Origin: Gemmataceae bacterium
Lineage (GTDB): Bacteria > Planctomycetota > Planctomycetia > Gemmatales > Gemmataceae
DNA: 64,000 bases
Reading direction: 5' to 3'
NCBI GenBank assembly: GCA_009692005.1
Contig: SHZZ01000011.1
Location: 1-64,000, forward strand
Positions 899 to 24,920 of this stretch are shown in pieces (the first letter of the stretch is position 1; each line of letters opens with the position of its first letter). The notes below the pieces were generated by a model. That model made no database searches, was not told where the DNA came from, and was given only the letters and a program-made list of their open reading frames with translations. The position numbers and the translations under genes were made by a program.

Positions 899-924
899 AG
901 GCCACCTATTAAAGGTGGCCTTTC
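899..924 (+). terminator. Rho-independent terminator after the first repeat protein
   Basis: A perfect 9-bp stem AGGCCACCT/AGGTGGCCT (899-907 and 913-921) encloses the loop ATTAA. It is followed by only a short T run (TTCCC). It lies 27 bp after the stop codon of the upstream gene. Confidence 0.7.
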
Positions 925-1122
925 CCAATTTAGCGGTTGTACTACCGAGGGCAGTTTAAACAGTAGTTTTGAGAATTATAAATAAACCGGGTTAATTGGT
1001 AAATTTAAGTTGTTTGAGTAGACATTGCAGCCGCCTTCCCCTTCTTATTGGGTAATAGTTCTTCTAACCAGAGGTTTTGCCAACCTTTGGCTCCCTTACC
1101 CCCTAATTGAAAAGGCAATAGT

Positions 1123-4100
1123 ATGTCCCCCCATACCCTTTTCTTGAATCGATCTACGGGTCGAAAGAAGAAAACTTTTTACTCTTTGGAATTGGTGGCG
1201 CTGGAAAACCGCGTTACCCCGGCGGCCTTCACCGCTGATGTCTTCTTGAACAATTCGGTGGTCGATGTCGTGGTGACCTCCACCGGCGTTCCCAACACGC
1301 TATCCTTAACCAACCTAGACGCCACCACCATCGAGGTGGATTCTGGCGCAGGGAATACCATTACCCTGACCGACCGCACTGGGGGCAACCTCACCATTAC
1401 CAACCTGGGGCAGGCATCGAATATTGGTCTCAATGCCATCCAGGCGGCAGGGTTGAAACTGACCGGTTCCGCCGGCGATGATCAGTTCACCTTGAATTCT
1501 TTTGACTCCACCGTTTTGCAATCGGCATTCAGTTTTGGTTTCCAGGTGGACACCAGCACTAATCCGGGCGGCCTGGCTGACACCCTGACCATCAACAATG
1601 CGGTAATTCTCAAAGGGGCGGGGAGTTTCATCACCAGCAATGATCTTGACCCGACCAAGGACTTGACCAATATCACCGTGACTGCCACGGGAAGCATCTC
1701 CACGGCAGGCACCGGAGCCATTCTCTTGGTGGCCAACTCCCAGATTGGCAGCAATGTCACCATTGATAGTGGCGGGACGGTCAACACCCAGGGCGGTTCG
1801 ATCACCCTGGTGGCGGAAAATACTGCCAACCCTACTGGCCGCATTCAATTGAATGGCAATGCCATCAACACTCAGGGCGGGTTTGTCAGTTTGCAAAGCC
1901 CAGTGCAGTTGCAAAAAAGCTCCACCATCAATACCGGGTCGGGGATCTTGGGGAGCATTACCTTTACTGGGAAGCTGGATGGGACCACGGCCAATATTGA
2001 GGACATGACCTTAATTTCCGAAGGCGCCATTAGTTTTAACGACGACATTGGCTTCGTAACTCCCTTGGGGAAGGTCAGCACGCAAACCCGCAGTCCGGCC
2101 AGCCTGACCATGTCGGGAACCAATGGCATCAGCGCAGATTCTTTGCAAAACATTACCGCTGTGACTGGACCGATCCTGATCACCGGGCCGCAGACCTATG
2201 CCAATAATGCCGGGTTGAACCTCAACGCCACGGGGGATATTGGCGCCATTCAACTGCTGGGGAACATCAGCCTGCAAGCCAATGCCACCTTGCAACTGGC
2301 GCACTCGGGATTGTTGACAATCGGTGGTTCAATCACCAACGGCATATTGAACGAGATTGGCGCTGCCAGCGGAACCTCGGTTCCCCAGGTCACCCTGGGA
2401 GTGAACAACCCGGTTACTTTAACCATGAACACGGGAATCACTTTCAATTCTCCCGTATTCCTTGGGCAAAACGCCACTTTAGTAACGGGTAACGGCCAGG
2501 GCATCCTCTTCAACAACACAGTGAACGGCGCGCGGATTTTAACCCTTAACACCGTCAGCACGGTCGAGTTCAAGGCCAATGTGGGCGACACTTCCACGGT
2601 CGACCAGATTGTTACCCTGGGAAATAATCCGTCGGCTCTGACTTTTGTCGGCGGGGGCGCGCTTCAGGCGGGGGGCGTGACTGCCACGGTCAATGGCGCG
2701 GTTACCATTACCGTGGACCAGAATTATACCGGGATCGGGCTAAACCTGACCACGATCGGCAAGGCCGGGACCGTTACCCTTGGAAAAATTACTTCACAAT
2801 CGGGGTCGATTGCCGGGGTGACGATTAACAACGGAGTGAACACGGCAGGGGCGGGAGCCATTCTTACCTTGACCAAGGACTTGGCCCTGGACGGCGCCTT
2901 TAGCCAGGTGGGCGACAACCAGGTCAACATTGGCGACAACACCTCCGCCGCCACCATCAACATCACCACGAATAATCAGGATGTGTCGTTTTCCGGCGCG
3001 GTGGTCTTGGTGAAGAACCTGAACATTAACGCCGGGACTTTCACCACCAGTGATGTGGTTTTCAACGGTTCCTTGGACAGCCTGTCCGGGGTGGCGAATA
3101 ATTTGACAGTGCTGGCTGGCGGGCGGATGCAATTCCTGGGCTCGGTCGGCGCGGTGACCCCCCTGGGCGTCATTGATTCGACCTTGGCCACCCTGTCCAC
3201 CTTGATTGCAGATACGCCGAGCAAGATTATTCAAACCGGATCGCTGGCGGCCAAAGTCGCGGGAACTATTTCCCTGCTGGTGGACCAGACTTATTCCACC
3301 GCCGCGGGCCTGGTCCTTTCCACCGTCAACCCGGGGAACAGCATTTCCCTGGGGAATATCACCACGGTGAATGGCGGAGTGGTGCAGGTGGCCAACACGG
3401 GCACGGCGACTCTGGCGGGAAATATCATCGCCTCGGGGTCGGTGAGTTTCACCGGCACGGGAAGCCTGGTTTTTGGCTCTCCTAACATCACCAGCCTGAC
3501 TGTCCGGTCGGAAACCGGCAACATCTTCTTCAATGGCGCTGTTACCTTGGGAATCGACACGCAAATCGCCACCCAGGGCGGAACCATCACCTTCAACAAC
3601 CTGGTCGATGGAGATTTTTCTTTGGGGATGACCTCGCAAACGGGGAACATCCTGCTGTCCGACCGCGTTGGGGTCAACCCCTTGGGGCCAATCACGATTG
3701 ACATCGCAGGCGGGGTAACCATCCTGGGCAATGTCTTCGCTGAATCCTTGAAGATGACCAATATTTCCGGACCCGTGGTGTTCAGCGGCACCTTGCAATT
3801 CAACAACATTTCGGGAAACAGCCTGGATGTGCAAACCAACAGCCCCTTGGCATCCGTGTTGTTGCAAAGCCAGGTCTTCGCTCCTTTTGGGGTGAACATT
3901 CAAAACACTGCCACCTTGACCATCACCGATCAGGCCGACATCGTCATCACCAGCGGCAATTTCGTGCAAGCAGGGGGCACGGTGGATGTGGCCGGAGACA
4001 TTCTCACTCCCGCCGGGACCATTACCCTCAACGGCGCGGTCAACCTGACGGGGGTGAACAATCTGGTTTCCGGCTCCACGACAATTCCGGGAAGCATTCT

Positions 4101-6156: not shown

Positions 6157-6180
6157 GGGGTTTCGAGGGAGCGGGGGAAA

Positions 6181-6224
6181 GGGGCCCTGGTAAGGCGAAA
6201 GCCTGCCGGGGCCCCGGCTTTTTG
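6181..6224 (+). terminator. Rho-independent terminator
   Basis: A long GC-rich hairpin starts 24 bp after the stop. GGGGCCC...AGGC pairs with GCCT...GGGCCCC around a GAAA tetraloop (6197-6200), with two or three internal mismatches, and is followed by GGCTTTTTG. Confidence 0.8.
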
Positions 6225-6469
6225 ACCCTGCGTCACTTTTGCCGCTTGTTCTGCCACTGCCGGTTGTTCCGATTGCAAAGGAAAAAATTTGGAAATCGCC
6301 CGGGAGGGCCCTCGGGATCTTTTGCCTCTACCCCGCTTGGGGTTTACATACATGATGAGTACCTGCGTGAGGATTGGTAGCGGACCGCCATTAGTGGATG
6401 AACGGGCGGAACCGTAAGGCAGGTGCAAGGAATACTGTGGCCCAATCTGGGCAGGAAGGGGCGAAGACC
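6225..6469. other. Intergenic leader before the second complete giant-protein gene
   Basis: Beyond the terminator I see no gene here. A GC-rich palindromic stretch (GAGGGCCCTC, near 6304-6313) is present. An in-frame ATG at 6398 would extend the next protein by 24 residues, but it has no obvious ribosome site, whereas the ATG at 6470 does. Confidence 0.5.
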
Positions 6470-9400
6470 ATGTGGCGATCCTGGCTGGGTGCTTGGAAAA
6501 AGAAGGCATCGAGACCGCGGCGCAGGCAGGCGGGAAGCCCTTTGGAGCTTGTCTCGCTGGAAAACCGGGTTACCCCTTCGCAAACTGTTAGCGCCACCCT
6601 GGTGGGCAATACCCTCACTTTTACTTCGAATTCTGCCACCGGCGAAACCAACCAATTCAGCCTCTCGCAAGTATCCCTCACCGGAACAGTCCTTCGCCTG
6701 CAGGGTGTTGGCGGGACCATTTTTAACGGCACCGGCGCTATTTTTTCCACAGGATTTAACACTGCAGACGCCACCATTGATTCCGCCATTCTTCCCGGCC
6801 TGAATAAGATCATGGTTTCGGGCGGCGCCGGAAACGACCAAATCACTTTTGGAAACCTCGATGGCAATGTCCTGGGCGCCTCGGATAAAAATGATTTTGA
6901 TTTTGAAGTCGATACAGCTTCGGTGGCGGCGGGCGGCGGTGGAGGCATCGACACTCTAACCTTTAACGGGCAAACTACCCTCAAGGGCAATGGCTCGTTC
7001 CTGACTAGCAACCTGATTCTTGCAGGGTCAAACCTCGAAGGGGTTTCCATCACCGGTTCAGGCGGCGTCAATTCCATAGGCACGGGGCAGGTTCGACTGG
7101 TCGGGGATGGTCTGGCCACCAGCAATGTCACTATTCAAAACGGCGGAAAAATAGCCATTGCATCGGGGCAGGTTACGCTGACTTCCGGCGCGAATGGAGC
7201 CGTCCGTTTGAATGGCAGCGCCGTTACTACGGTCGGCGGATCAATCCTTTTTTCCAGCAACGCCATTTTAGAATCTTCCACCACTCTCGCCACCGGCCTG
7301 GGCTCAGGCGGGGTAACTTTCAATGGCTCCTTGCTGGGGATCACAGCCGGCGCCGAAAACCTCAGCATCAACACCACCGGCGCGGTGGCCTTTAATGGCG
7401 TGTCAGGAACCACCCTGCAACCTTTGGGAAATATTCAGTTCATTCAACAGGCTCCGGCTTCCCTTACGGTCAATAACCTCTTTGCACTTTCCTTGACAGG
7501 AACCGTGGCCGGCCCGGTTTTGTCCATAGGCGAAATGGTCCTGTCTGGCTCCAGTGGTCTGCAGTTGACCACAACCGGCACTCTGGGAACGGTCAACCTT
7601 GGAACCCCAGGCCAGGTTACTCCTGCGGTTACCACCACCGGTTTTGGCCCCATGACCTTCAACAATTCCCAGGATTTGGTGGTCAATGGCAACCTGATTT
7701 TGGATGGGGCGCTGTCGCAAACCGGGGCGGGAAATGTTTTCCTTGGGACCGCCGGCGTGGTCACTGCCTTGACGGTTTCCACCACCTCCGATGCCATCAG
7801 TTTCACCGGGCCGGTTTCCCTGGCCCAGGAAACAGCCATCAATTCCAACAAGTTGGGCACCCTGGGTGGCGGCGCCAGCCTGACATTTTCCTCCACCTTG
7901 GATGGTTCCTTTAGCTTGAATTTGAATGCAGGCGTGGGCGACACCACTTTCACCGGCGCCGTTGGCGCCACCGCCAATTTACTGAGTATCAACCTCGCCA
8001 ATACCAACCGGTTTACTAGCAGTTCCACCATTACTGCCGACTCTTTCACCATTGGCCAGGCATCAAACTTGGTGCAGTTTAGCGGCGCGCAGATTTACGA
8101 TCGACTTTCTGGATTGACGGTTGTCACCGCGACCAGCAATGGCATGATCCTTGTCAACGCCCCGGTCACCTGCCTGAGCACCGCGGTATTATCCCTGAAT
8201 AACTCGGGGCTTTTAGTGGTTTCCTCAGGGGCCAATCTGACGGTGGATTCTGGCTCTCTGACTCTGGGAGGCAGCAGCGGCGGCAGCATTCTACTGGCCG
8301 CCAACCTGACTTCGGTCGGCGGCGCCATTACACTGGCCAACCCAACCAAACTGCAAGCCGACATTACTGTAAACGGCAACGGCGGCACGGTTACCTTTGC
8401 CAACACACTCGACAGCAATTCTTCCGTGGCCAATTCCATCACTTTGAATGGCAGCACGGTCAGCCCCTTCTTTTTCAACAAGCCAGCCGGGGCCAGTTTG
8501 CCTTTGAATAATATCAATGTGACGGCTTCGGGCGGGGTGACTTTTGTCTCATCCTTAACGGCGGCCAATGTCACCATTACCACCGGATTGAATACTTTTG
8601 CTGTCAACGGGAACTTGACCCTAAGCGGCAATTTGGCCACTGCCAACGCCGGCTCACCCTATGCGCTTTCCCTCACAGGCTTGAACAACCAGGTGAATGG
8701 CACGGTGGTTTTGGCTCACACGGGTGGCACGCTGTTGGGCAATTTGAATTCCGCTTCCTTTCTCTTCAGCAAAGGCTTGGAGGAATCGGGCGCCGGCGGG
8801 GTCACCTCTCAGGGCAATATCACCACCGGTTCGGGAATGAACCTGCTTAGCGAATTTATAGTCGGAGGAAATAACACGGGCGAGGTGACCCTGAATCTCG
8901 GCGCCGACAGCATTTTCTCCAACCGCTTGCAGGTGCAAGCCGCGGAGAGGATCACCAAAAGCGGCGCGGGCGGGTTGCGCCTGTTAAGCAACTCCGGCGG
9001 CCTTTATCAGGGCACTTTGGTCGTGAATCAGGGGTTGGTCACTGTTCTCGACTCCTTTTCTTCCATTCTGAACACCACGCTGGCCGGGGGCACGGTTTCC
9101 GGCACCGGTTCCCTTGGTCCGATTTTTGGCCTGGTCGGTATCTTGGCTCCTGGCGATGTTGTCGGCACCCTGAACGCTGGGAATACCTCCCTCAATTCAC
9201 TCACCACTTTTGCCATTCAAGCCGGTACGATCCAGGGCGCAGGCACCGATCAACTCAATGTGAATGGCAGCGTGATTTTGAATAGCCCGGTCCTAGGCAT
9301 CACGGCAGGATCCTTCCTTACCAAGGGCAGCGTGCAGATGATTATCGTCAACGATGGCGCCGATGCCATCCAGGGGACTTTTTTCGGCGTGGGGGAAGGG

Positions 9401-10516
9401 ACGAATGTGGTATCCGGCACGACAACCTTCCGCGTCAGCTACAAGGGGGGGACGGGCAACGATATCACCTTGACAGTGATCAGCACGGTGTCGCCTCCGG
9501 TGCCTGTGGTTCCCGGAATCACCAAGTTTTTCGCCACCGCTGTCGACGCCGGCGGCGGGCCTTCCGTCACGGTAAATTATACTTCCGGGGCCACCTACAC
9601 TTTCTTTGCTTACGACACGGCTTTCCGCGGCGGGGTCCGGCTGGCGATTGGCGATGTCAATGGCGATGGTTTCGAGGACCTGGTGACCGGAACCGGTCAA
9701 GGCGGCGGGCCTCATGTCAAGGTCTGGGATGTTTCTTCCGGCCAGGCCATCCAGGTCGCCAGCTTCTTCTCTTATTCTCCCCAATTTACCGGGGGGATTT
9801 ATTTGGCCTGCGGGAACTTGAACGGGGACGGACGCGATAGCGATGGCAACGGCACCGTCGACTTCCCCTACTACGACATCATCATCGGCGCTGGGCCAGG
9901 CGGCGGGCCTCATGTCAAGGCGATTGCTGGCTCACCCACTTTCTCCCTGAATCCAAGCGCGGCCATTTCCAGCTTTTTCGCCTATAGCGCCTTTTTCACC
10001 GGCGGAGTCACGGTGGCCGCGGGAGATCGCACCGGCGATGGGCTCGACGACATCGTCACCGGGGCGGGCCCGGGGGGCGGACCCAATGTTTCTGTGTTCG
10101 CCATCAACGGCACGCCTTTGCAAAGTTTCTTCGCCTTCGACACCACCTTCCGCGGCGGGGTCTTCGTCGCCGCCGGATATTTTACGCAGATGCCTTCGGC
10201 CACCCCGGCGCCCAACACGCCGCCGCCCTTGGCGGATATTTTTGTCGGCAGCGGAGCGGGGATGCAGGCCACCGTGGCGGTTGCCTTTGGCACCGGCGGG
10301 TATTATTTCCTCACCCCTTTTGGCGCCTTCACCGGCGGGGCTCGCGTCGGCATTGCCCGAAACTCCGCAGATTCCGCCCATTTCCTCCTGGCCGCCGCTG
10401 GGCCGATGGGCGGGCCTGTGGTCAATCTTTTCAATTCCAACTTTACCCTTGTCGATGCCTTCTTTGCACTCAATCCAGAAGTGGCCACTGGCTTGAACGC
10501 CAACACCACACTTTAA
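6470..10516 (+). CDS. Giant beta-strand-repeat protein with C-terminal FG-GAP-like domain
   Basis: 1348 aa from the ATG at 6470, chosen because AGGAAGGGG lies just upstream and because the resulting N-terminus (MWRSWLGAWKKK..., then LELVSLENRVTPS at about residues 25-37) matches its neighbours. The N-terminal 24 residues are very basic, with no clear signal peptide. Residues about 40-1000 form N/T/G/S-rich beta-helix-type repeats ending in VSYKGGTGNDITLTV. The FG-GAP-like domain runs from about 1020 to 1348 with DVNGDGFEDLVTGTGQGGGP-type loops; one blade carries an extra acidic insertion with two more Ca-loop-like segments (GDGRDSDGNG, near nt 9829-9850). It ends ATGLNANTTL, like its paralogues. 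Probably exported or surface-associated; function unknown. Confidence 0.9.
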   Translation: MWRSWLGAWKKKASRPRRRQAGSPLELVSLENRVTPSQTVSATLVGNTLTFTSNSATGETNQFSLSQVSLTGTVLRLQGVGGTIFNGTGAIFSTGFNTADATIDSAILPGLNKIMVSGGAGNDQITFGNLDGNVLGASDKNDFDFEVDTASVAAGGGGGIDTLTFNGQTTLKGNGSFLTSNLILAGSNLEGVSITGSGGVNSIGTGQVRLVGDGLATSNVTIQNGGKIAIASGQVTLTSGANGAVRLNGSAVTTVGGSILFSSNAILESSTTLATGLGSGGVTFNGSLLGITAGAENLSINTTGAVAFNGVSGTTLQPLGNIQFIQQAPASLTVNNLFALSLTGTVAGPVLSIGEMVLSGSSGLQLTTTGTLGTVNLGTPGQVTPAVTTTGFGPMTFNNSQDLVVNGNLILDGALSQTGAGNVFLGTAGVVTALTVSTTSDAISFTGPVSLAQETAINSNKLGTLGGGASLTFSSTLDGSFSLNLNAGVGDTTFTGAVGATANLLSINLANTNRFTSSSTITADSFTIGQASNLVQFSGAQIYDRLSGLTVVTATSNGMILVNAPVTCLSTAVLSLNNSGLLVVSSGANLTVDSGSLTLGGSSGGSILLAANLTSVGGAITLANPTKLQADITVNGNGGTVTFANTLDSNSSVANSITLNGSTVSPFFFNKPAGASLPLNNINVTASGGVTFVSSLTAANVTITTGLNTFAVNGNLTLSGNLATANAGSPYALSLTGLNNQVNGTVVLAHTGGTLLGNLNSASFLFSKGLEESGAGGVTSQGNITTGSGMNLLSEFIVGGNNTGEVTLNLGADSIFSNRLQVQAAERITKSGAGGLRLLSNSGGLYQGTLVVNQGLVTVLDSFSSILNTTLAGGTVSGTGSLGPIFGLVGILAPGDVVGTLNAGNTSLNSLTTFAIQAGTIQGAGTDQLNVNGSVILNSPVLGITAGSFLTKGSVQMIIVNDGADAIQGTFFGVGEGTNVVSGTTTFRVSYKGGTGNDITLTVISTVSPPVPVVPGITKFFATAVDAGGGPSVTVNYTSGATYTFFAYDTAFRGGVRLAIGDVNGDGFEDLVTGTGQGGGPHVKVWDVSSGQAIQVASFFSYSPQFTGGIYLACGNLNGDGRDSDGNGTVDFPYYDIIIGAGPGGGPHVKAIAGSPTFSLNPSAAISSFFAYSAFFTGGVTVAAGDRTGDGLDDIVTGAGPGGGPNVSVFAINGTPLQSFFAFDTTFRGGVFVAAGYFTQMPSATPAPNTPPPLADIFVGSGAGMQATVAVAFGTGGYYFLTPFGAFTGGARVGIARNSADSAHFLLAAAGPMGGPVVNLFNSNFTLVDAFFALNPEVATGLNANTTL

Positions 10517-10537
10517 GGAAAGTTTTCAAAAACCCTG

Positions 10538-10571
10538 CCGGACCGGTATTCCCGGTCCGGTCGTTTTTTTT
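10538..10571 (+). terminator. Rho-independent terminator
   Basis: A perfect 9-bp stem CCGGACCGG/CCGGTCCGG (10538-10546 and 10552-10560) with loop TATTC is followed by TCG and eight T residues, 22 bp after the stop codon. This is the strongest terminator in the array. Confidence 0.92.
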
Positions 10572-10704
10572 GTCACGATTCTTACGATCCTTCCCGCAAT
10601 TCCTTCCTGCAAGAGAAATAGAAGCATCCCTGAAGAGTCAAACCATTTGCCACCAAGGGATTTGCGAGGAAAGATTCATTACGGCAAGGTCTGTCAGGAG
10701 ACAG

Positions 10705-10740
10705 GCCGGGTTGGATTTCCTTAAGGGAAAGCAGCCCGGC
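10705..10740 (+). promoter_or_regulatory. Leader hairpin upstream of the 2257-aa protein
   Basis: GCCGGG (10705-10710) pairs with CCCGGC (10735-10740), and an inner TTTCC/GGGAAA helix closes on TTAA. The structure sits 15 bp before the Shine-Dalgarno AGGAGA (10755-10760) of the next gene, so it would fold in the 5' UTR. It could stabilise the mRNA or affect translation; no known riboswitch class is recognised. Confidence 0.35.
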
Positions 10741-10765
10741 AGCCAAAAGGGATCAGGAGATCATC

Positions 10766-13700
10766 ATGATGAAGCGGTCCGCGTTCCGCAGGTTTTTTGA
10801 TCGCTTTTCCAAACGGCCGGGAAAGCGCCTCAAAGGAAATCCCACCTTAACCCTGGAATCCCTTGAGAACAGGGAAAACCCCAGCACCCTATCGGCGGGC
10901 GGTGGCATCCTTTTTGTCATTGGCACCAATGCCGCCGACACCATCGACATTGGGTTGAACGGCAACATACTGACCATTGCCGATGCAGGCGGCTTATTCG
11001 GCGGCGCCTTTGGCGCCATCCCTGCCAATAATACTTACACCCTGGACTTGAACACCGCCGCCGCCAATGGCTTCCGCGGCATAAGCGTCGCCCTCTTTCC
11101 AGCCGACGACATTTTGAATATTAACGGCCTCGATTTCAACGCCCTGACCAACGCCAATATTACCTCCGCTTCCATTGCCATCATCGGCGATAACTTTCAA
11201 GGCGTCGGGCAGAATGACACCGTTAACCAGGTGGGAATAGTTTCCTCGAAGGTGGCCAACATCTCTTACATCGCCATGGACAATATCAATGGCGATGCCC
11301 AGGGAAATCCCACCACGGTTACCTGCAATGGCGCTAATAGCACGCTTCTGTTTAAGAATTTTGCCAACAAAATTTCCATGAGCAATAGCGACCTCACTTT
11401 TAATTGCCTGGGGACAGCTATTTCCTTTGACAGCCAGGTGCAATTGAATGTCAATGTCAACCTGATTGGATCGGCGGCAACTGCATGCAAAATAACTTCC
11501 ACCAACAATCCAGCTCTGGCTAATTCCTTCACTTCGGGCAAATCCAACCTGACCATCAACACCAAGGGCGATGTCACCGTTCAAGGCGCCATTGATTTAG
11601 GGGGTGGCAATTTAATCGTCACTAACACCGATGATTTCACCGCCCAGGATGATGTTTCCGCCAACGCCATTATCCTTTCCAGTCAAACGGGTAATTCCAT
11701 TGTGAAGATTAATTTCCAGGGGGATGTCAACGCCAATTCAGTGCTCTTTCAAAACATTGGCGGGAATAACAAAGGCGCCCTGGTGACCATAGATGGAAAC
11801 CTGACAGTGACCGGGACCTTTACCGCCACTTTCACTTTGAATTCAGGCAAAAACTACAACCTCGACCTGCTTGGCCAAACCAATCAGGTCAATGGCCTGG
11901 CCACTATTTCCAATAGTGGCAGCCTGACCCTGGGAAATGTGGGCAACAATCCTGCCGCCAACCCCACCTTTTCCTTTGGCGAACTTGATGCCTCCCTTTT
12001 GAATGGACCCACTTTCCTTTATGCCGATGTCACCACCCTCAATAACATTACCCTCAAGGGCATGACCATCAATGGCCAGGTGTTCGTGCAACCGCAGAAT
12101 GGCGTGGTGGCCACTGATAAAACTTTCACTTTGACCGCCAAGAGCGGCGCCAACATTTCCATCCTGGGGCAGGTGGAGTTGCAGGATAACACCAACAACA
12201 TCACTATTGGATCCAATCTGCAATTAAGCGCGGTCAATGCCGGCGGCAATCAGGGCGCCATCAACCTGCAATCGGTCGTGGGACTCAATCGAACTTTGTC
12301 CTTTCTCGATTCCAGCAATGTCAATGTCACGGGCGCCATTTCTGTTAAAACCTTGAATTTGCAAAACACCGACACCTTCAAAGGCGCCGGCGGCGGATTC
12401 ATGACCTTCGATGGCAATATTGGCATCATTACCAACCCCACTCTGCTCAATGTGGGAACGGGAAAATACGGGATCAAGTTGTATGGGCCCAATGTCATTC
12501 TTGGCTCTACACCCCCTTCTCCCAGGATCAATTTCAACAATATTGGCCGGGTGATTCTTGGCAACGACAACCAGAGCACCATCTCCTTCCTCGGCGGGGC
12601 ATTTTTTGGGCCCACCGTAGGGGTGTCTGGCAGTGGTAATGTCTCGGGTACTGTTCGCGTTCAAGGGAGCATTGAACCGGGCCAATACACGGTAACTGAT
12701 GTCAACAACAACACCGTGTCCAAGGATATTGGCGTCCTTACCTTTAACGGGCCCTTGAATCTCGAACAGCCGGGCGGTTCCATCGCCGGGCAAGGGACTG
12801 CCATTTTCTATCCGGAAATCGGCGGCAATGTCGTGGGACTCAATCAGGATCAACTGGTTTGCTCCGCTGGCTTTAACCTGTCGGGCAACCCCATTCTCTA
12901 CCCCATTCTAAGAACCACCAATCTGCCAATTGGCTCGCAGTTGACTGTGGCCCGGCTTACCGACGCCAGCAAAATTTCCGGCCAGTTCCTGGGACTTACC
13001 GATCCCACCGCCAACACCTACACCGCTCTGGCCCAGGGCGCGACCTTCTTCGGTGGCAACGGCATTTTCACCATCAACTATCAGGGCGGCGATGGCAATG
13101 ATGTTGTCATTACCCTGGTTGGTTTCAGCACCGGAACCAATGTTTTTGTCGATCTGCAAGGCGTTCTCAATGTGGTGGGCGACAACCAGACCAGCGATGT
13201 CACTGCCGAGATCATTAATGGCGGCACCACCTTAAATATTCAGGATCTGACCTATGGCCTTACCGGCTCCGCTTATGGTTACAAAGTTGTTAACAATAAC
13301 ATCGATATTGACTTGACCAACACCACCGCCATCAGCGCGAATCAGTTCAACGGTTTCCGCGTGATCTTGAACGCTGGCAGCGACACTTTCAATCTTCAGA
13401 ACTTTAACATTACCCAATCGGGCAATGTCAACATTCAGAATGTCTTTTTCTCCTTCAATGGCGGGCCGACCGCGCAACCGAGTCTGGATACTGATATTTT
13501 GAACTTGGTTGGCACCAGTTTGAATATTCAAACCCTGGCCTTGAATGCGCCGGCGACCATTGATGTTCAGGGCTTCGATCGCATTATCAGTTTGCAGAAC
13601 GGCAAGGCGACCAGTGGCAGTTTAATTTCCGCCAACGGCGGGAAATCCGCCCTCACCATTGCCGACCCAGTCATTGTTCAAACAGGGTCGGTTACCTTGG

Positions 13701-16700
13701 CCACGGCCACCGGTGGGACTTTGAGTTTTTCCAACGACATTATCCTCGGCGATGGCGCCGCACTCACGCTCGGTAATGGCGTCACCACCAGCATTAATTT
13801 GCAAGCCGTCCGCGGAACTCCCGGGAACGCCAACTCCAACCTCTCCTTTAACGCCAAGGGGACCATTCAGGTTAATGGGTTGATCGGCATCGACATTGGC
13901 GATTTCACCATTTCCAATTCCGGCGCCACCACTTTTTCAGGCACTGTCGATTGTTCCCTTCTCGACATTCAGAACAACCAGGCCAATAAAAACATCGTTT
14001 TCAAAGGGCAGGTTGGGGCCTCTTCCAACCCGGATGTGGTTCTCGGCAGTTTTCAATCTACCGTTCGTTTTGTTGATAACCTATTTGCCAATTCCATCAG
14101 CACCGCGACCACCGCCCTATTGCGTGTGGAATTCCTCGGCTCCACCACAACCGTGCAGCAAGGGGCTCAGTTCAGCAACACTGGCGGGATAGAATTCGGC
14201 GATTCCAACGACATCCTCACTTTCAATGGCGGTTTGCAGGTCGATGCCGGTTCTCCTTGCGAGTCGTTCGGCACCATCCAATCCCGAGGGGCCGTCATCA
14301 GCATCCTTTCTAATGTCTCGCCACAGAATGCCAATGCCGGCCTAATTTTGAATGGCAACACCACCATCAAGTCCACTTTTGGCGGAGTGGCATTTTCCGC
14401 GCCCATTACCCTGGGCCGCGTTTTCACTCGAGGCGGCACCTTGACCGTCGATTCCGGCAGAAGCGCCGGCTCCACCATCACCATTGACAGCGTCCGCGAT
14501 AACAATGGCAACCTGATCGTTGTCGATTCTGCAGGCTTTTCCATCACCGAGGTCGGCCACCTCAGCCTCGACACCACTACCGACCCCAATGAGGTCTTTG
14601 GCAAGGTGACCATCTTGGATTCCACGGGCGATGTGGTTTTCAAAGAAAATGTCCTGGGCAATTCCATCGAGACTTTTAATAAGCAGCACAACATTATTTT
14701 TCAGGGCGGCACCCAGACGATTGATAACTCCAAGTACAACCTGGGGGTTTTCATTCTGACCGGGACTACGCCCACGGTATTCCGCAATCGCGGCGACCTG
14801 ACGCTGGGCATTAACGGCGGCGACCGCATTACCAACTTCAATAAGTCGATGGATTTCTTTCTCTTTAACGCCGGCCTCGATGCCACCGCCGTTACTGGAA
14901 CCACCAACCTGGCCGGCAGGGTTTACACCAGCAATACTTTGCTGACCTTGAGCCGGATCGCGCTGCTACGGGACAGCTACCTCAATACCTACATGCCCTT
15001 CACCACCTTTAGTTTTGCCAGTTTCAGCGATTTTCTCCGTCCTTTTAATGTTTTTGATTTCACCAATACCCTTCAGATTGATAATTTAAACACCAACATT
15101 CTTAACATCGTGCAAACGCCGATTCCCGTCCGGGCCGGGGATATTGTCCTTGGCGACATTGACAATAACGCCGTGGACTTGGAGTTGAACGCGGGCGGGC
15201 CTGGGCTGGCTTCCGGGTCGCGTGCCGTCGGCGATATTTTCATCCGGTCCTACGCCGGCATCAATCAGGAGAACTTCGGCATCTATCGCGCGGGCAATGT
15301 CAATTTCACCGGCGCGGTCAGCGGCAACAACTTTCAAATTGGCCAAGGCGCCAATGGATTTAACTCCGCCAATGTGGAGATCTCCGGGACTATTTCCGTT
15401 CAGGGAAATTTTTCCGCCTTCAACACCCTGTCCGTTTCCAACGATGTGAGAAACCTGGCCTTGGTCGGCGACCTCAACACCATCTCCGCCACCAATTCCA
15501 TTGCCAACATTGGTTTCCTGCAATTGGGCAACAACACCAACGATGTTTTCAACATCAGTGCCAACCTGGATGCCCGCGGGCCGGAGGAGCGTCGCATCGC
15601 CGGGACTTTTAATGTTTCCGGCGGGAGAAACCTAGACCTCGGGCCTTCTCCCACCACTCTGCTGGCCAATTCCACCATCAATACCAACGGCATTGGCCAG
15701 ACCACTTTTGGCGCCATCACCAACAACGCCTTCGACTTGACCATTAATGGCCGGGTGGAAGTGCAGCATGCCGTGGATATCAGCGCCGTTGCCCCGTACC
15801 CCCCTCAAACCATTCCTTCGACTATTGTTCCCGTGAACAACATTATTGGCGCCGGAACTGGTGGCGGGGATATTTTCTTCAATGGAGAAATATTGCTCCA
15901 GCCCGTGGTCATTCCCGCGGGGAACCGGGTGGTGATTCCCCAAACCGTGGATTTGAAAAAGCAAGGGACTGGCAGCGCCATCCTGGCCGTTGACAGCAGC
16001 GCCAACACTTCCGGACTGCAATTAGAAATCCAAAACGGCGATTTCTTCTTCAACAACGGCGCCATTAACAGCAACACCCTAACCACGGTGAACTCGGGCG
16101 GCACCCTGGGTGGCACCAAGGGAACGCTTGGTGAAGCCGTCGTTCTTACGGGCGGGAAGTTATCGCCCGGCACCCCAACCAACCCCATTGGAGCTCTGGT
16201 TTTGGGAGATGACCTGACGGTTCGCGGCACCTATGCCGTCAATTTGCGCAGCGTCGCTTTCTCTTTGTTCGACCATGTCACCGTTTCCGGCGCCGTCACC
16301 ATCGCCACCAGCGGCAGACTGACGGTCAATTTCACCGCCGATGCCAATGTGGCCATCAACGATATGTTTGGCATAGTCAACAACTTGGGCGCCAACGCCA
16401 TCAACGGCATTTTTGCTGGTTTGGCCGAAGGCGCCACTCTGAACTCCGCCCTGCCAGGTGGAAACAATGCCACCTTGCAAATCACCTATCGTGGCAACAT
16501 TACGCCGGTTTCGACTTCATTTACCGGCGGCAATGATGTGGTCCTGCGCATCACCAATATTCAACCGGCCAGCTCTATCCAGCCAACCGGGCCAGCTCCG
16601 GTTCGCAAGCTCTTTGCCTCCGGCGCGGACGCGGGCGGCGGGCCTCTGGTCAATGTCAACTTCGACAATGGCTCGACCATGGATTTCTTCGCCTACGATC

Positions 16701-17539
16701 CGCAGTTTGCAGGCGGGGTGCGGGTGGCGATTGGGGATTTCAATGGCGACGGCACCCCCGATCTGGTCACGGCGGCCGGGCCGGGCGGCGGGCCTCATGT
16801 TTCCGTCTGGACCATCACCCCCAATGTCGGGTACCCCAGGTTCCAGGTCGGTTTCTATGCCTTCGAACCTAATTTCACGGGCGGGTTGTCCCTGGCCACT
16901 GGCGACATCAATGGCGATAACATCGACGATATAATCGTGGGGGCTGGCGCTGGAGGCGGGCCACGGGTGGCGGCTTTTGCCGGCGCGGCCAATTTCCAGA
17001 TTGACGCCAATGTCCGTATTGCCGATTTCTTCGCCTACTCGCCAACTTTCACCGGCGGGATCAATGTCGCTGCGGGAGACCGCAACGGTGACAATGTCGC
17101 TGACATCATTACTGGCGCTGGGTTCGGTGGCGGGCCCCATGTGCAGGTCTTCCGCGCCAATGGCACCGTGATTCAATCCTTCTTTGCTTTCGACCCCAAC
17201 CTGAGGAACGGCGTGTTTGTCGGCGCCGGCGATCTCGACCAGGACGGCCGCGCCGACATCTTCACAGGCACCGGGCCAGGAATAACGGGCGCCGCTGCCG
17301 TGTTCTTTTTTAATGGCAACCAAAGCATGATTGAACCGTTTGGAATCTTCACTGGCGGGGTGCGGGTGGGCGCCGCCACCGATAACGCCAATCAGTCGTT
17401 CCTGGCCACCGCCGCAGGTCCGGGCGGCGGGCCGGCTGTCCGGCTCTTCAACGACAACCTGCGCCTGGTTGATTCTCTCTTTGTCTTCCCGACAAACTTC
17501 ACGGGCGGAGTGCTAATTTCCACCACGGTGAATGGTTAA
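10766..17539 (+). CDS. Very large beta-strand-repeat protein with duplicated passenger module and FG-GAP-like C-terminus
   Basis: 2257 aa. ATG-ATG at 10766/10769 follows AGGAGA (10755-10760). The N-terminus is strongly basic (KRSAFRRFFDRFSKRPGKR), then LTLESLENRENPS (about 28-40), a variant of the LENR motif of the neighbouring paralogues. Two beta-helix passenger modules follow: the first ends near residue 780 with TINYQGGDGNDVVITL, the second runs to about 1940 and ends with a related ITYRG...GGNDVVLRI. The usual end-of-passenger signature therefore occurs twice, suggesting module duplication or fusion of two ancestral genes. Residues about 1948-2257 are the FG-GAP-like domain (GDFNGDG, GDINGDN, GDRNGDN, GDLDQDG loops). 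Likely secreted or surface-exposed; function unknown. Confidence 0.9.
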   Translation: MMKRSAFRRFFDRFSKRPGKRLKGNPTLTLESLENRENPSTLSAGGGILFVIGTNAADTIDIGLNGNILTIADAGGLFGGAFGAIPANNTYTLDLNTAAANGFRGISVALFPADDILNINGLDFNALTNANITSASIAIIGDNFQGVGQNDTVNQVGIVSSKVANISYIAMDNINGDAQGNPTTVTCNGANSTLLFKNFANKISMSNSDLTFNCLGTAISFDSQVQLNVNVNLIGSAATACKITSTNNPALANSFTSGKSNLTINTKGDVTVQGAIDLGGGNLIVTNTDDFTAQDDVSANAIILSSQTGNSIVKINFQGDVNANSVLFQNIGGNNKGALVTIDGNLTVTGTFTATFTLNSGKNYNLDLLGQTNQVNGLATISNSGSLTLGNVGNNPAANPTFSFGELDASLLNGPTFLYADVTTLNNITLKGMTINGQVFVQPQNGVVATDKTFTLTAKSGANISILGQVELQDNTNNITIGSNLQLSAVNAGGNQGAINLQSVVGLNRTLSFLDSSNVNVTGAISVKTLNLQNTDTFKGAGGGFMTFDGNIGIITNPTLLNVGTGKYGIKLYGPNVILGSTPPSPRINFNNIGRVILGNDNQSTISFLGGAFFGPTVGVSGSGNVSGTVRVQGSIEPGQYTVTDVNNNTVSKDIGVLTFNGPLNLEQPGGSIAGQGTAIFYPEIGGNVVGLNQDQLVCSAGFNLSGNPILYPILRTTNLPIGSQLTVARLTDASKISGQFLGLTDPTANTYTALAQGATFFGGNGIFTINYQGGDGNDVVITLVGFSTGTNVFVDLQGVLNVVGDNQTSDVTAEIINGGTTLNIQDLTYGLTGSAYGYKVVNNNIDIDLTNTTAISANQFNGFRVILNAGSDTFNLQNFNITQSGNVNIQNVFFSFNGGPTAQPSLDTDILNLVGTSLNIQTLALNAPATIDVQGFDRIISLQNGKATSGSLISANGGKSALTIADPVIVQTGSVTLATATGGTLSFSNDIILGDGAALTLGNGVTTSINLQAVRGTPGNANSNLSFNAKGTIQVNGLIGIDIGDFTISNSGATTFSGTVDCSLLDIQNNQANKNIVFKGQVGASSNPDVVLGSFQSTVRFVDNLFANSISTATTALLRVEFLGSTTTVQQGAQFSNTGGIEFGDSNDILTFNGGLQVDAGSPCESFGTIQSRGAVISILSNVSPQNANAGLILNGNTTIKSTFGGVAFSAPITLGRVFTRGGTLTVDSGRSAGSTITIDSVRDNNGNLIVVDSAGFSITEVGHLSLDTTTDPNEVFGKVTILDSTGDVVFKENVLGNSIETFNKQHNIIFQGGTQTIDNSKYNLGVFILTGTTPTVFRNRGDLTLGINGGDRITNFNKSMDFFLFNAGLDATAVTGTTNLAGRVYTSNTLLTLSRIALLRDSYLNTYMPFTTFSFASFSDFLRPFNVFDFTNTLQIDNLNTNILNIVQTPIPVRAGDIVLGDIDNNAVDLELNAGGPGLASGSRAVGDIFIRSYAGINQENFGIYRAGNVNFTGAVSGNNFQIGQGANGFNSANVEISGTISVQGNFSAFNTLSVSNDVRNLALVGDLNTISATNSIANIGFLQLGNNTNDVFNISANLDARGPEERRIAGTFNVSGGRNLDLGPSPTTLLANSTINTNGIGQTTFGAITNNAFDLTINGRVEVQHAVDISAVAPYPPQTIPSTIVPVNNIIGAGTGGGDIFFNGEILLQPVVIPAGNRVVIPQTVDLKKQGTGSAILAVDSSANTSGLQLEIQNGDFFFNNGAINSNTLTTVNSGGTLGGTKGTLGEAVVLTGGKLSPGTPTNPIGALVLGDDLTVRGTYAVNLRSVAFSLFDHVTVSGAVTIATSGRLTVNFTADANVAINDMFGIVNNLGANAINGIFAGLAEGATLNSALPGGNNATLQITYRGNITPVSTSFTGGNDVVLRITNIQPASSIQPTGPAPVRKLFASGADAGGGPLVNVNFDNGSTMDFFAYDPQFAGGVRVAIGDFNGDGTPDLVTAAGPGGGPHVSVWTITPNVGYPRFQVGFYAFEPNFTGGLSLATGDINGDNIDDIIVGAGAGGGPRVAAFAGAANFQIDANVRIADFFAYSPTFTGGINVAAGDRNGDNVADIITGAGFGGGPHVQVFRANGTVIQSFFAFDPNLRNGVFVGAGDLDQDGRADIFTGTGPGITGAAAVFFFNGNQSMIEPFGIFTGGVRVGAATDNANQSFLATAAGPGGGPAVRLFNDNLRLVDSLFVFPTNFTGGVLISTTVNG

Positions 17540-17592: not shown

Positions 17593-17727
17593 CCTGCTGA
17601 TCCTTATCTCCACATCCCCCAGTTTTTCTTCTTGACGAATTCTCTTACTGGTTTATCTCTTCCTGCTTCTGATTTTGAAGTTGCCGGTCCGGATGGGGGT
17701 CCGGTTCGCTAACTTTTTTGGGGGTAA

Positions 17728-19384
17728 CCAATTTTTCCTTCCTGGCCCAGGCTGCTTCTTGCAGCCTGCCTTTTCCTCCTGATTGCTTTCTTGGGGATTC
17801 CTTCCTCCTTCGGGTGGCAGGAACCGACTAATCTTTCCCTGCGCTTGAAAAAACTTGAGCAGGAAAGCCTGGAGTTGCAAAAACAGGTGGAAAACCGATT
17901 GCTCGAGGCGTCGCTCCATGATGCAAAGGCTTCCTTGTTGAAAAAATCCCCCGCCGGGCCGGACACTTCCCTTCAATCCGCAACTCCTTTCAATTTCAAA
18001 CCCGATCTGGACCCCCCCGATGTTTCTGATGCCCCTTTTCTTCAAACCCTATTCGATCAGGGTTTCCTCCTTCAATCCGAGGACAAAGCTTTTTCTCTTC
18101 ATGTGGGCACCCTGGTGCAATTTTCCAATGGTTGGTATTCCGCCCCCGACAATATTCAGCAAACTCTGGATCGACCCTTGGTTGATGGGTCCGACTTGCG
18201 CAGGATGCGCCTACGCCTGGACGGCAATATTTTCAGCCAGTTTATTTTTATGATGGAATTTGATGTTTCGGGAGGCGCCGATTTTCGCACGCCCCTCCCC
18301 GATCCCCAGGCGCCTTTGTTTATCAACCAAGTCTGAATGGGAATGCGGGACCTCCCGGTCCTGGGCGTCGTTCGCGCCGGGCACTTGAAAGAATTATTCA
18401 CCTTTTCCAATGCTACCGACAGCCGTTCTCTTCCCTTTTTTGAACGCCCGTTAATCTTTGATGCCATCGAGGATGCCGACTCCTTTTCCAATGGCATCTC
18501 CGCCACCAACCAGTTTTTTGACAATCGCTTGAACCTTTTGCTGGGCTTCTACCGAACTGGCACGCGCACCGGCGCCTTTGATGTTGGCAATGGCCGTTAC
18601 GCTTTTGACCAGCGGATTTGTTACTTTCCCCTTTTAGACCAGGACAATCAGCGTTGGATGGTTTTCGGCGCCAGCGGGTCGGTGCGAACGCTCCCCTACG
18701 ACACTTTTGAAACAGCCAATGGACTCACATTTTTGCCGAACATCACTTTCTTTTCCCGACCCCTGGTTCGCACCGGCAGCGGTGTTTCCTCTCCCAGAAT
18801 CATCAGCACCCCCATGCTTTTTAGCGACAGCGGCCAGGGAATTTTTGGCTTGAGCGCCCAGGGAGCCCTTGGCCCCTGGACTTTCGGGGGCGAATACTTG
18901 GCCTCTTGCTTGAGGTCGGCCTATTTGAATTCCTTGCCGGGGTATGGCACGATCAATGGCCGCCCCATCCAATCCGTGGGGCCCCTGTTTTACCGGCGGG
19001 TTTTATGCGCAAGCTTTGCGCTTTCTCACACCTGGAGACCATCGACCCGTGGTCGTGGATAATCCTGGTTTTGGCAGAGTCCGACCGAAAAGGCCTTTTC
19101 AATTCCGTAGAACCGAAGACGGGCTTTCCCGCGGCCCAGGCGCCTGGGAAGCCAAGGTGCGCTATGATTTTCTCGACCTGACCAACAACGCCATTGCCCT
19201 GTTGGCCCCCTCGGTGGCGGAGTCTGGCGGCCGCTACTAGGCGCTGACTTTCGGACTTAACTGGTACTGGAATCCGAACATGTTGGTGATGGCGGATTAT
19301 GTTTATAACCTCAGGCAAACGGAACAGCTCGGCGGGTCAGGAACTTTCTCCAGCTTTGGAATCCGCACGCAGTTTGATTTTTAA
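17728..19384 (+). pseudogene. Decayed outer-membrane porin (phosphate-selective porin O/P type)
   Basis: A porin-like protein can be read across two frames but is broken several times. Frame 1 starts with a hydrophobic signal-like stretch (LLLAACLFLLIAFLGIPSSFG, from about 17752) with no ATG in frame; the nearest ATG with a plausible N-terminus (17693) is in another frame. A coiled-coil stretch (LRLKKLEQESLELQKQVENR) and porin strands follow to a TGA at 18334-18336, where family members would be expected to have Trp (FINQV-stop-MGMRDLPVLGVVRAGHLKE). The frame then continues to about 18990, where one extra T in TTTT shifts the coding to frame 2 (TGGFYAQALRFLTPGDHRPV). A TAG at 19238-19240 interrupts GGRY-stop-ALTFGLNWYWNPNMLVMADY. 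The terminal strand ends NFDF-like (IRTQFDF) at TAA 19382-19384. Sequencing error could explain one lesion but hardly all. Confidence 0.8.
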
Positions 19385-20990: not shown

Positions 20991-21094
20991 GAAACTGGAT
21001 AATCGAGGCCCTTGCCCATTTTCCTTGGCCTTGCTCTCCCTTTCCCTTTTCGCTTTACTCATCCTCTCCTTTTTTTTCTTGGGTGAAGGGGCGA

Positions 21095-22903
21095 ATGCGA
21101 ACCCGACTGGCCTTTCTGATTTTCCTTTTGACCGTGGTCCTATCCGGCTGCCAAGGGTTGGGGGGGAACCGCCGTGAGAAGCACCCGCCCATGCTTTCCT
21201 CATGGAACCAGCAGGCGCGCGGTCACCTGGTCTCGCGTAATCTGCCCGCCGGAATTCCTGACGCCACGCCGGCCCGTTTGCGCAACGCCCTGCAAGATCC
21301 CAATCTCGGCACCGCCGACTGGGAAGCCCTCATGGAGCTTTGCTTTGAAAAAGGGGATCGGGAAAACAACCAGGTAATTTCCGCCGGAGTGGAGTCTTTT
21401 GCTTTCGCCGCCTGCTTCGCCTGGAAGGTCATGGAGAAGGAGGGAATCGATTCCCCACAAGCTCGGCGCGCCTCGCGTCTTTACCAGAGTTCCCTGGTGC
21501 GGGTGATGGAAGACGGCGCCGAGGGAAAGGCCTTTCATTCCCATGGCGATTGGCGTTATCACGAAAACACCCCGCCATTCCCGGTTTCTCCCCATGGCTT
21601 TCCCAACCACCCTTGGCTGTTTCATCAATTGAGCGTCCCGGTGCCAGACACCGACGCCAGTCTGACCCACTACTACACCCGCGCCGGCACCGGCTTGCCG
21701 GTCATATTCCATCCCGGCGCCAATCAGGTTGTTGATAAGACCGATGTCTATCACAACCTGGGACATCCGTTTTCCGCCACCGTGCTCCTGCTTCCCAACG
21801 GCAAGGAAGATTCCGCATTCTGCAGGATTGAAGTGGTCAACCCGCGGGTTTACTCCAGCGTGAAGGTGAACGGCAAGGAAGTTCCCCTGGCTGCTGATTT
21901 TTCCGCCCCGTACGAAGAAATGCTCGATCGCGACATCGCCTCGCACTTGTGGATCCTCGGTTTCCTGCAGGGCGATCTCGAGTCGCGCCATCAGGGACTC
22001 TACATGGTCGAGCCGTACCAGAAAGGGAAGATCCCCGTCGTCTTTGTTCATGGTTTGCTTTCCTCCCCCGCCACTTGGATGGAAACCATGAATGAACTCG
22101 ATCAGGTTCCCGGGTTGCGGGAAAAGTATCAGTTCTGGATTTACATGTACCCCACTTCCGGGTCGATATTATTGAACGGCACCGACCTCAGGGAAAACCT
22201 GGCCAAGGCCGTTCGCGACACCGACCCTTCGGGCGAGGATGTGGCCTTGCGCCACATGGTTCTCGTCGGCCACAGCATGGGCGGGTTGCTTGCCCGCTTG
22301 CAGGTGACTCACAGCGATGAAGTCCTGGCCCGGGGCGTTTCCCGCGTTCCCATTGAGCAGTTGCAAGGCAGCCCTCCTACCCTGGAATTGGCCAAGCGGA
22401 CCTTCTATTTCGAGCCTAATCCCAATATCCGCCATGTGGTTTACATCGGCACGCCGCACGATGGTTCGCCCATTTCCATCCGCCCCTCGGGCCGGGTCAT
22501 TTCCTGGCTGGCCAAGGTGCCCACCTGGCAAAAGTCCTTCCGCAGTGAGATTATCGAAAGCAACCCCGGCGCCCTTTACCCCGCTTTTTCCTTGCAAGCA
22601 CTACCGACCAGCGTGGACATGCTGGGCACGGAAAACCCCTTCTTGCGCCTGATCCGCCAGGTCCGCCGCAGTGAAAAAATCCAGGTCCATTCCATCGCTG
22701 GGGATCTCGACCAGGTCCTGGAATTCCGCCGGGGCGATGGCGTCGTTCCTATCAAAAGCGCTCTCGACACACCCTCCGATTCCAAGATCGTGGTGCCGGA
22801 AAAACACACCCAGTTGCATCATCACCCACAGACCGTCGCTGAACTGAAACGCATTTTGCAATTGAACCTGGATGAGTTCAAAAAGGAAAATTCCAAGCCC
22901 TGA
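21095..22903 (+). CDS. Lipoprotein alpha/beta hydrolase (lipase/esterase-like)
   Basis: 602 aa from ATG 21095 (GAAGGGG just upstream); a GTG four codons earlier is possible. The leader RTRLAFLIFLLTVVLSGC has a good lipobox (LSGC), so the protein is probably anchored in a membrane. The N-terminal half (to about residue 300) is a family-specific region without a motif I recognise. The C-terminal half is an alpha/beta hydrolase: VVFVHGLLSSPATW (oxyanion region), nucleophile elbow GHSMGG (Ser near residue 394), the Asp candidate in DGVVPIKSALD, and the His candidate in EKHTQLHHHP near the end. Related planctomycete proteins are annotated as alpha/beta hydrolases of unknown substrate. The G6PD gene begins 76 bp downstream on the same strand. 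Confidence 0.85.
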   Translation: MRTRLAFLIFLLTVVLSGCQGLGGNRREKHPPMLSSWNQQARGHLVSRNLPAGIPDATPARLRNALQDPNLGTADWEALMELCFEKGDRENNQVISAGVESFAFAACFAWKVMEKEGIDSPQARRASRLYQSSLVRVMEDGAEGKAFHSHGDWRYHENTPPFPVSPHGFPNHPWLFHQLSVPVPDTDASLTHYYTRAGTGLPVIFHPGANQVVDKTDVYHNLGHPFSATVLLLPNGKEDSAFCRIEVVNPRVYSSVKVNGKEVPLAADFSAPYEEMLDRDIASHLWILGFLQGDLESRHQGLYMVEPYQKGKIPVVFVHGLLSSPATWMETMNELDQVPGLREKYQFWIYMYPTSGSILLNGTDLRENLAKAVRDTDPSGEDVALRHMVLVGHSMGGLLARLQVTHSDEVLARGVSRVPIEQLQGSPPTLELAKRTFYFEPNPNIRHVVYIGTPHDGSPISIRPSGRVISWLAKVPTWQKSFRSEIIESNPGALYPAFSLQALPTSVDMLGTENPFLRLIRQVRRSEKIQVHSIAGDLDQVLEFRRGDGVVPIKSALDTPSDSKIVVPEKHTQLHHHPQTVAELKRILQLNLDEFKKENSKP

Positions 22904-22979
22904 TTTTTCACTTCTTTCATCAATCGAAGCTGGTACATTTATTCTGGAACTTTTTTTGATTTGTCCGAGAGACCCCCCC

Positions 22980-24920
22980 ATGCCTGCTCCCATGCTCCTC
23001 AAGGCCCTTCCTGGCTCCTCTAAATACACCGACTGCCCCGCCGAGCCCTGCCTCATGGTCATCTTTGGGGCCTCCGGCGACCTGACCAAGCGCCTGCTCA
23101 TGCCGGCGCTTTTCAACCTCCATTGCGACAATCTTTTGGGGGAGAATTTCGCCATCCTCGGCATCGCCATGGACAATCTGGATTCAAACGCCTTCCAGGA
23201 ACATATGTCCGCCGACATACGCAAATTCAACACCCGCAAATCGTTTGATGAAGGGGCCTGGAATCGTTTCGTCTCCAAGCTGCATTACACGCAGGGGAAC
23301 TTTGGCGATCAAGCCGCCTATCAGCGCCTTGGGGAAAAAATGAAGGCCCTTGGCAGCCAGTATAATACCCAGGGCAATGTCCTTTTCTACATGGCCACGC
23401 CGCCTTCCGTTTTTGATCTCGTATCCTCCAACCTCGACCGCGCAGGCATTAAAACCTCCTCCGGCTGGGTTCGCATCATTTTTGAAAAACCTTTTGGCCA
23501 CGACCTCCACTCGGCCATCGAACTCAACCGACTCCTTCTCAAATATTGGAAAGAAGAACAGATCTACCGCATCGACCATTACCTCGGCAAGGAAACCGTG
23601 CAAAACCTCCTTGCCTTCCGTTTCGCCAACGGCATCTTCGAGCCTTTGTGGAACAAGGACCGCATCGATCACATTCAATTCAGCGTCACGGAGACTGTCG
23701 GGGTGGAAAACCGCGGGAAGTATTATGAAACCTCCGGCGTATTGCGCGACATGATTCAAAACCATATGTTCCAGATGCTCGCCTACCTGTGCATGGAGCC
23801 GCCTTCTTCCTTCAAACCCGATGCTATTCGTAACCAGAAGGCGGAAGTCCTCGACGCTGTTCGCATCATGACCCCTGAAACGGTGAAAACGCACTCCCTG
23901 CGCGGGCAGTACGGCCCGGGGAAGAGGTCGGATGGCACGGCCGCCGCCGGGTATCGCCAGGAGCTTGATGTTTCCACCACTTCCAGCACCGAAACCTTCG
24001 CCGCTATCAAACTCTTCATCGACAACTGGCGCTGGGAGGGCGTGCCCATCTACCTTCGCTCGGGGAAAAGTTTGTGGAAACGCGGCACGGAGATTGTTGT
24101 TCAGTTTAAGCAGGCGCCGGAGATTCTCACCCGAGGCACCAATGCCTCTCCCGGCGAACCCAACCGGCTCATTTTTCACATTCAGCCGGACCAGGGTATT
24201 GAACTGCGCGTTCAAGCCAAAACCCCGGGGCCCGCTCTCGCCACCCAAAAAGTCAACATGCGCTTCGACTACGCCGATTCCTTCGAGGCTTCACGCGGCA
24301 CAGGCTATGAAGTGCTCCTTTACAGTTGCATGATAGGCGATGCCACTCTCTTTTCCCGCACCGACCTGGTCGAAACCGCCTGGCGCATTGCCCAACCGAT
24401 GCTCGACGCCTGGGCCGCCGAACCGGCGCAGGATTTCCCCAACTACCCCGTGGGCGGCTGGGGGCCCAAGGCCGCTTACGACCTCATTGAGAATGACGGT
24501 CGTCGTTGGGTCGAGGTGATTGGCCGCAATGTCCTCAACAAAATTCCCCTCTTTCAAAAATGCAGCGAGGTCTTCCTTCACAACCTCGCCATCAATCTCC
24601 GGCCGGACATTTATTCCCAGGGTGACCTGATCATCCGCCATGGGGAGATCGGCAAGGAGATGTTCATTATCTCTCGCGGCTCGGTTGAGGTTCTTAACGA
24701 GGCAGGCAAAGTCATGGCCACCCTTGCCGATGGCGCGTTCTTTGGCGAACTCAGCTTGCTCAATTCCATCCCGCGTACCGCCACCATTCGGGCCTTAACT
24801 CCATGCGATGTTTTTATTCTCGACAAGGCCGATTTCGACCGCGTTTTGAAACTGCACCCTGACTTCGCGGAGAACCTCAAAGAAATGGCCAACAAGCGCT
24901 ACCCGGGCCGAGAAAGTTGA
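22980..24920 (+). CDS. zwf: Glucose-6-phosphate dehydrogenase fused to a cyclic-nucleotide-binding domain
   Basis: 646 aa from ATG 22980; an upstream in-frame ATG (22872) would overlap the previous gene. Residues 1-510 are a full G6PD (oxidation of glucose 6-phosphate to 6-phosphogluconolactone with NAD(P), oxidative pentose phosphate pathway): nucleotide-binding FGASGDLTKR near residue 30 and the catalytic-region RIDHYLGKE near 198. Family members usually end near 480-510 residues; here about 125 residues follow (about 520-640) that read as a cNMP-binding domain: LRPDIYSQGDLIIRHGEIGKEMFII, then the phosphate-binding cassette FGELSLLNSIPRTATIRA with conserved Gly-Glu and Arg. The segment resembles the domain of cyclic-nucleotide-gated channels and PKA regulatory subunits. 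The cassette is intact, so ligand binding is plausible; allosteric control of the dehydrogenase is inference. Confidence 0.93.
   Translation: MPAPMLLKALPGSSKYTDCPAEPCLMVIFGASGDLTKRLLMPALFNLHCDNLLGENFAILGIAMDNLDSNAFQEHMSADIRKFNTRKSFDEGAWNRFVSKLHYTQGNFGDQAAYQRLGEKMKALGSQYNTQGNVLFYMATPPSVFDLVSSNLDRAGIKTSSGWVRIIFEKPFGHDLHSAIELNRLLLKYWKEEQIYRIDHYLGKETVQNLLAFRFANGIFEPLWNKDRIDHIQFSVTETVGVENRGKYYETSGVLRDMIQNHMFQMLAYLCMEPPSSFKPDAIRNQKAEVLDAVRIMTPETVKTHSLRGQYGPGKRSDGTAAAGYRQELDVSTTSSTETFAAIKLFIDNWRWEGVPIYLRSGKSLWKRGTEIVVQFKQAPEILTRGTNASPGEPNRLIFHIQPDQGIELRVQAKTPGPALATQKVNMRFDYADSFEASRGTGYEVLLYSCMIGDATLFSRTDLVETAWRIAQPMLDAWAAEPAQDFPNYPVGGWGPKAAYDLIENDGRRWVEVIGRNVLNKIPLFQKCSEVFLHNLAINLRPDIYSQGDLIIRHGEIGKEMFIISRGSVEVLNEAGKVMATLADGAFFGELSLLNSIPRTATIRALTPCDVFILDKADFDRVLKLHPDFAENLKEMANKRYPGRES

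Follow-up and report, generated by a model that had tools for sequence, protein, structure and literature searches.

A probable, recently inactivated pseudogene of the Porin_O_P family, with two intact paralogues elsewhere in the same Gemmataceae genome

OprP and OprO, two porins of Pseudomonas aeruginosa (PDB 2o4v, 4rjw, 4rjx), belong to the phosphate-selective porin O/P family, whose profile, Porin_O_P (PF07396), is matched by two pieces of the broken gene described here and by its intact paralogues. Planctomycete genes of this kind have been annotated as phosphate porins, as passages of two reports state (PMC6461901, PMC3422733); the assignment is one of annotation and the selectivity is putative. 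Recent bacterial pseudogenes are portrayed in sections of a further article as sequences with few disablements and a good match to intact homologues, and the disablement of a native duplication is one of three pseudogene origins named there (PMC522871, Genome Biol. 2004). The broken porin resembles the pseudogenes of those sections and shows no difference in kind from them. A literature search on the gene itself gave nothing among the papers listed.

The window analysed here is a stretch of 64,000 nucleotides on contig C1 of the genome of a Gemmataceae bacterium. At positions 17728-19384 it reads as one Porin_O_P protein only if a TGA, a frame change and a TAG are passed. We regard this sequence as very probably a pseudogene, the remains of a former third planctomycete Porin_O_P member that was inactivated recently. 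The features are as follows:

10766-17539, forward strand: giant FG-GAP-repeat surface protein, the upstream neighbour, whose counterpart precedes an intact porin pair in the related genome G110
17689-17704, forward strand: CCGGATGGGGGYCCGG, an element of 16 bases 5' of the broken porin, which also stands upstream of the first intact porin at C85 (L033) 1853-1868
17725-17727, forward strand: in-frame TAA just 5' of the porin reading, from sequence and translation
17728-18333, forward strand: piece 1, by its translation a signal-peptide-like hydrophobic stretch, a charged coiled-coil-like region and the first barrel strands
18334-18336, forward strand: nonsense codon TGA, Trp in the nearest porins (residue 208 of C85 porin 1)
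18337-18985, forward strand: piece 2, middle of the barrel, Porin_O_P profile 83-252, 217 residues aligned with C85 porin 1 and 56.7% of them identical
18985-18992, forward strand: frame change of one base, the exact base not resolvable; homology passes from the frame of 17728 to that of 17729
18989-19237, forward strand: piece 3, further strands of the barrel, now read in the second frame, 82 residues aligned with C85 porin 1 and 53.7% of them identical
19238-19240, forward strand: nonsense codon TAG, at the place of residue 514 in C85 porin 1, where the porin 1 relatives have Q
19241-19381, forward strand: piece 4, last strands of the barrel, Porin_O_P profile 323-370, 47 residues aligned with C85 porin 1 and 68.1% of them identical
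19382-19384, forward strand: TAA, end of the family's reading frame
C85 1876-3585: C85 porin 1, intact, PF07396
C85 3633-5255: C85 porin 2, intact, PF07396

Both nonsense codons reported by the first-pass annotation are present in the sequence. The TGA stands, as had been proposed, in place of an expected tryptophan: the five nearest relatives all have W in this column, in which the 24 rows with a letter hold W 11, Y 8 and F 5. The column of the TAG is mainly N, Q and S. Of the frameshift described near 18990 as one extra T, the sequence bears out a net shift by one frame at about 18985-18992, though not the extra T as such. Codon statistics trained on the neighbour genes favoured the first frame almost throughout the stretch from about 17785 to 18955, the second being slightly ahead at 18055 and 18595; the second frame was clear from about 19135, and the interval 19000-19090 was ambiguous by codons alone.

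Piece 1 aligns with C85 porin 1 over 176 residues, of which 43.8% are identical, and alone gave no Pfam match. PF07396 was matched at 18337-19062 (E 2.6e-6) and at 19241-19381 (E 2.4e-5), over the profile positions listed above, with 27.4 and 24.2 bits against a curated cut-off of 20.9. The reading as an outer-membrane porin is thereby borne out on both sides of the lesions, and the TAG is followed by the last barrel strands. In a search of the whole genome with PF07396 the gene appeared as two matches (36.6 and 41.3 bits) with one TGA and one TAG within; NCBIfam had no name for any porin sequence submitted. Joined with X at the lesions, the pieces were 51% identical to the intact C85 porin 1 over query residues 6-552, and in the column alignment the overall identity was 52.9% with C85 porin 1, while porin 1 of G110 reached 48.7%. 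Since the homology to intact proteins is continuous through all lesions, these are true lesions and the pieces are not chance open reading frames; disabling mutations thus lie in a sequence homologous over its length to intact genes, as is required of a pseudogene.

The start of the gene is missing. Between the TAA at 17725-17727 and TTG 17791 the porin frame contains no ATG, GTG or TTG, and this first candidate start lies 3' of the hydrophobic, signal-peptide-like stretch, so the earlier statement of a lost start is correct as a description. The codon scores at 17695-17740 favour another frame than that of the porin leader, hence the start codon may have been mutated or, just as well, a second frame change may lie within the leader. 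A working Porin_O_P member consists of an open reading frame with a start and a signal peptide; here we found no start, two stops and one frame change, and the sequence is a remnant of a family member, not a working one. A product begun at or after 17791 would have no signal sequence, would stop after about 3 of some 16 long strands and would therefore form no channel.

The structural model used here is that of the intact paralogue C85 porin 1. For it AlphaFold predicted about 16 long strands at a mean pLDDT of 56.9, a confidence that is moderate at best. A Foldseek search with this model returned OprP (2o4v) first and OprO next, the structural match having 18% sequence identity, and a profile of eight intact relatives found OprO and OprP alone among the solved structures. 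C85 porin 1 has 561 residues with its leader, about 150 more than the solved OprP chain (411), and differs from OprP by a coiled-coil-like N-terminal part. On the model the TGA falls into the fourth long strand, the frame change at about residue 430 into the twelfth and the TAG into the fourteenth. A product ending at the TGA, judged by this model, could not close the barrel.

The lesions could be errors of sequencing or assembly, or a patch of mixed strains, while the real gene is intact. The genome is a draft of 4.19 Mb in 99 contigs (completeness 100%), interrupted genes of uncertain origin occur in relatives as well (a lipase of G109, a porin of G096), and the excess of missense changes expected of a pseudogene is absent. 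Against this stand three to four defects within 1.66 kb in the middle of a contig, two of them plain substitutions. This clustering argues against random error. All 30 neighbour open reading frames scanned were uninterrupted (27 of them with Pfam domains). Furthermore, an internal stop was counted by eye in just one of the 150 PF07396 matches, the best ones, listed for 95 family genomes. We consider an intact gene behind these lesions unlikely.

Interrupted porins are accordingly uncommon in the family, among the matches listed. The single match of that count is G026:C83:15224-16381, with one TAA inside. The porin of G096 (L052 1987-2226) contains a TAG and a locally scrambled stretch, and a close relative of it in G013 (L010) is intact; the G096 gene may be another porin pseudogene or the product of faulty assembly.

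PF07396 occurs at three places in the genome, the broken gene and the intact tandem pair on contig C85. The search for other porin copies, advised with the initial reading, thus yielded two further genes, both intact. The genome is the sole member of its genus in the comparison set of 95 family genomes. The best matches of the broken porin outside this genome reached 54% and belong to G110 and G111 of another genus (g20), and no closer orthologue of the broken porin was found in the 95 genomes. A contig scan for porin relatives found none, and among 80 loci anchored on the glucose-6-phosphate dehydrogenase gene, the closest at 73%, none had the broken porin or the giant protein in its flank. 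The nearest genes for the proposed comparison with an intact orthologue are therefore those of another genus of the family. The C85 pair and the porin pair of G110/G111 are of the same family and the same clade as the broken porin, but they are intact and the copy in the window is broken.

For the tree 28 of 44 protein rows were used, distant or cut-off rows being left out; the column tests, also without the row of G096 (stop) and the long-branched row of G009, used 26 of 44. The broken porin is sister to a trio of C85 porin 1 and the first porins of G110 and G111, which is joined with 99/97, and together with this porin 1 clade it groups with the second porins, again with 99/97. Other pairings were tested against this order and gave p = 0.0496 with C85 porin 1 (AU test) and p = 0.023 with porin 1 of G110. 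A position of the broken porin outside the porin 1 trio is likely from these sequence comparisons.

The tree also bears on the idea that C85 porin 1 was duplicated only lately, within this genus, and that the broken copy never worked. C85 porin 1 is indeed its nearest row by tree path (1.07), a 5' element is common to both genes, and the AU test only just rejects their pairing. However, the tree joins C85 porin 1 with porin 1 of G110, and the identity of the broken copy to C85 porin 1 is barely above one half, without a DNA-level match to C85. A search for a DNA-level duplicate elsewhere in the genome found none, giving one 24-base match plus weaker ones. At such a distance a copy that had never worked would no longer show its conserved columns, and we hold this origin to be very unlikely.

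The common 5' element is CCGGATGGGGGYCCGG; exact copies of it stand upstream of these two porins and nowhere else in the genome. The shared stretch of 17 bases scored 14, above all 400 simulated pairs (maximum 12) and above 561 of 561 pairs of other upstream regions (maximum 13). As a general motif the element was rejected: allowing up to two mismatches it was not enriched in the genome, where it had 10 matches and the reversed control had 23. It was absent upstream of porin 1 of G110 within the upstream stretch read. From the sequence, both porins may have retained the element in their 5' regions as a control site.

The first-pass annotation had taken the good conservation between the lesions as a sign of recent decay. 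At the columns conserved in at least 90% of the other rows the broken porin departs in 4 of 58, and the 22 other full-length rows depart in 0 to 10. At 109 columns conserved to at least 70% outside the clade we counted 20 departures for the broken porin, 23 for C85 porin 1 and 22 for porin 1 of G110; departures are thus no commoner than in the intact copies, and the conservation is as claimed. The branch from the common fork measures 0.48 for the broken porin and 0.59 for C85 porin 1. Without an excess of departures at conserved columns and without a long branch, few neutral changes, and with them a recent loss, are favoured. About 3.1% of random substitutions in the broken porin create a stop, so that two stops correspond to about 65 substitutions (95% range 8-234), and the scripted addition of 65 random substitutions raised the departures from 20 to 27.2 (sd 2.4). 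Four defects without a measurable missense excess are slightly uncomfortable in this respect, about 65 substitutions by one estimate against fewer by the column test. The third-position GC points the other way: it is 0.614 in the broken porin, and 64 windows of neighbour genes (up to 548 codons) had a lowest value of 0.624 and a median of 0.696. Either a longer decay under AT-biased mutation or a gene that was always different would give such a value. Recent decay is supported overall.

Several lesions without a missense excess would also be explained if the gene were still under selection and its lesions were recoded, or differed between cells so as to switch a surface channel on and off; we judge this to be highly improbable. 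The full protein by recoding, with TGA read as tryptophan, a frame shift and readthrough, has in its favour the Trp position of the TGA in the nearest relatives and the conserved sequence between the lesions, but is highly improbable, as TGA is an ordinary stop in the neighbour genes (TGA 9, TAA 11, TAG 1 in 21 genes), the intact C85 porins have a sense codon at this position, and a single gene would have to combine three different kinds of recoding with an unusual start. A general reassignment of TGA to tryptophan was set aside on the same stop usage.

The surroundings of the gene point to an old position. In G110 the order is the counterpart of the giant protein (53.6% identity over its last 546 residues), the intact porin pair and a glycosyltransferase. 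The broken porin has the same giant gene upstream as the G110 pair. In the genome studied here this arrangement is divided, with the giant gene and the broken porin on C1 and the porin pair with the same glycosyltransferase on C85. There the pair is preceded by a DUF1559 gene, for which the 17 relatives searched gave no match at E 1e-60 or better, and followed by the glycosyltransferase.

The forward strand at 51-17539 encodes four successive large proteins, at least the first (a fragment), the third and the fourth with FG-GAP repeats; their C-terminal parts resemble one another by way of a relative in G110. On the other side lies a lipase-like gene (21083-22903), whose orthologue L090 684-2428 (G109:C31) is divided between two frames, one part having a reported TAG inside. 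The glucose-6-phosphate dehydrogenase at 22956-24920 (forward strand) has a C-terminal cyclic-nucleotide-binding domain (PF00027, E 4.9e-20). Matches to relatives at about 52-73% identity usually reach query residue 649 or so, through this domain, and many more distant ones stop near residue 519; the enzyme may be controlled by cyclic nucleotides.

For the porin the simplest reading is the recent loss of a redundant gene, an ordinary pseudogene in early decay. The broken copy would go back to a split from the first tandem porin's ancestor, earlier than the separation of this genus from g20, and would have been under selection for most of the time since. Its loss may have followed once it was no longer needed, its role being covered by the tandem pair on C85 or by a changed niche. 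Three ancestral porins may have stood behind the giant gene, one lost in the line of G110, which has only two strong porin matches, and one being lost here. The significance reaches little beyond annotation, where the short open reading frames 17791-18336, 18337-19062 and 18944-19240 should not be listed as genes. For the family, the locus would present one planctomycete genome in the course of losing one of three related porins, at a place where the porin pair downstream of the giant gene is still intact in a relative.
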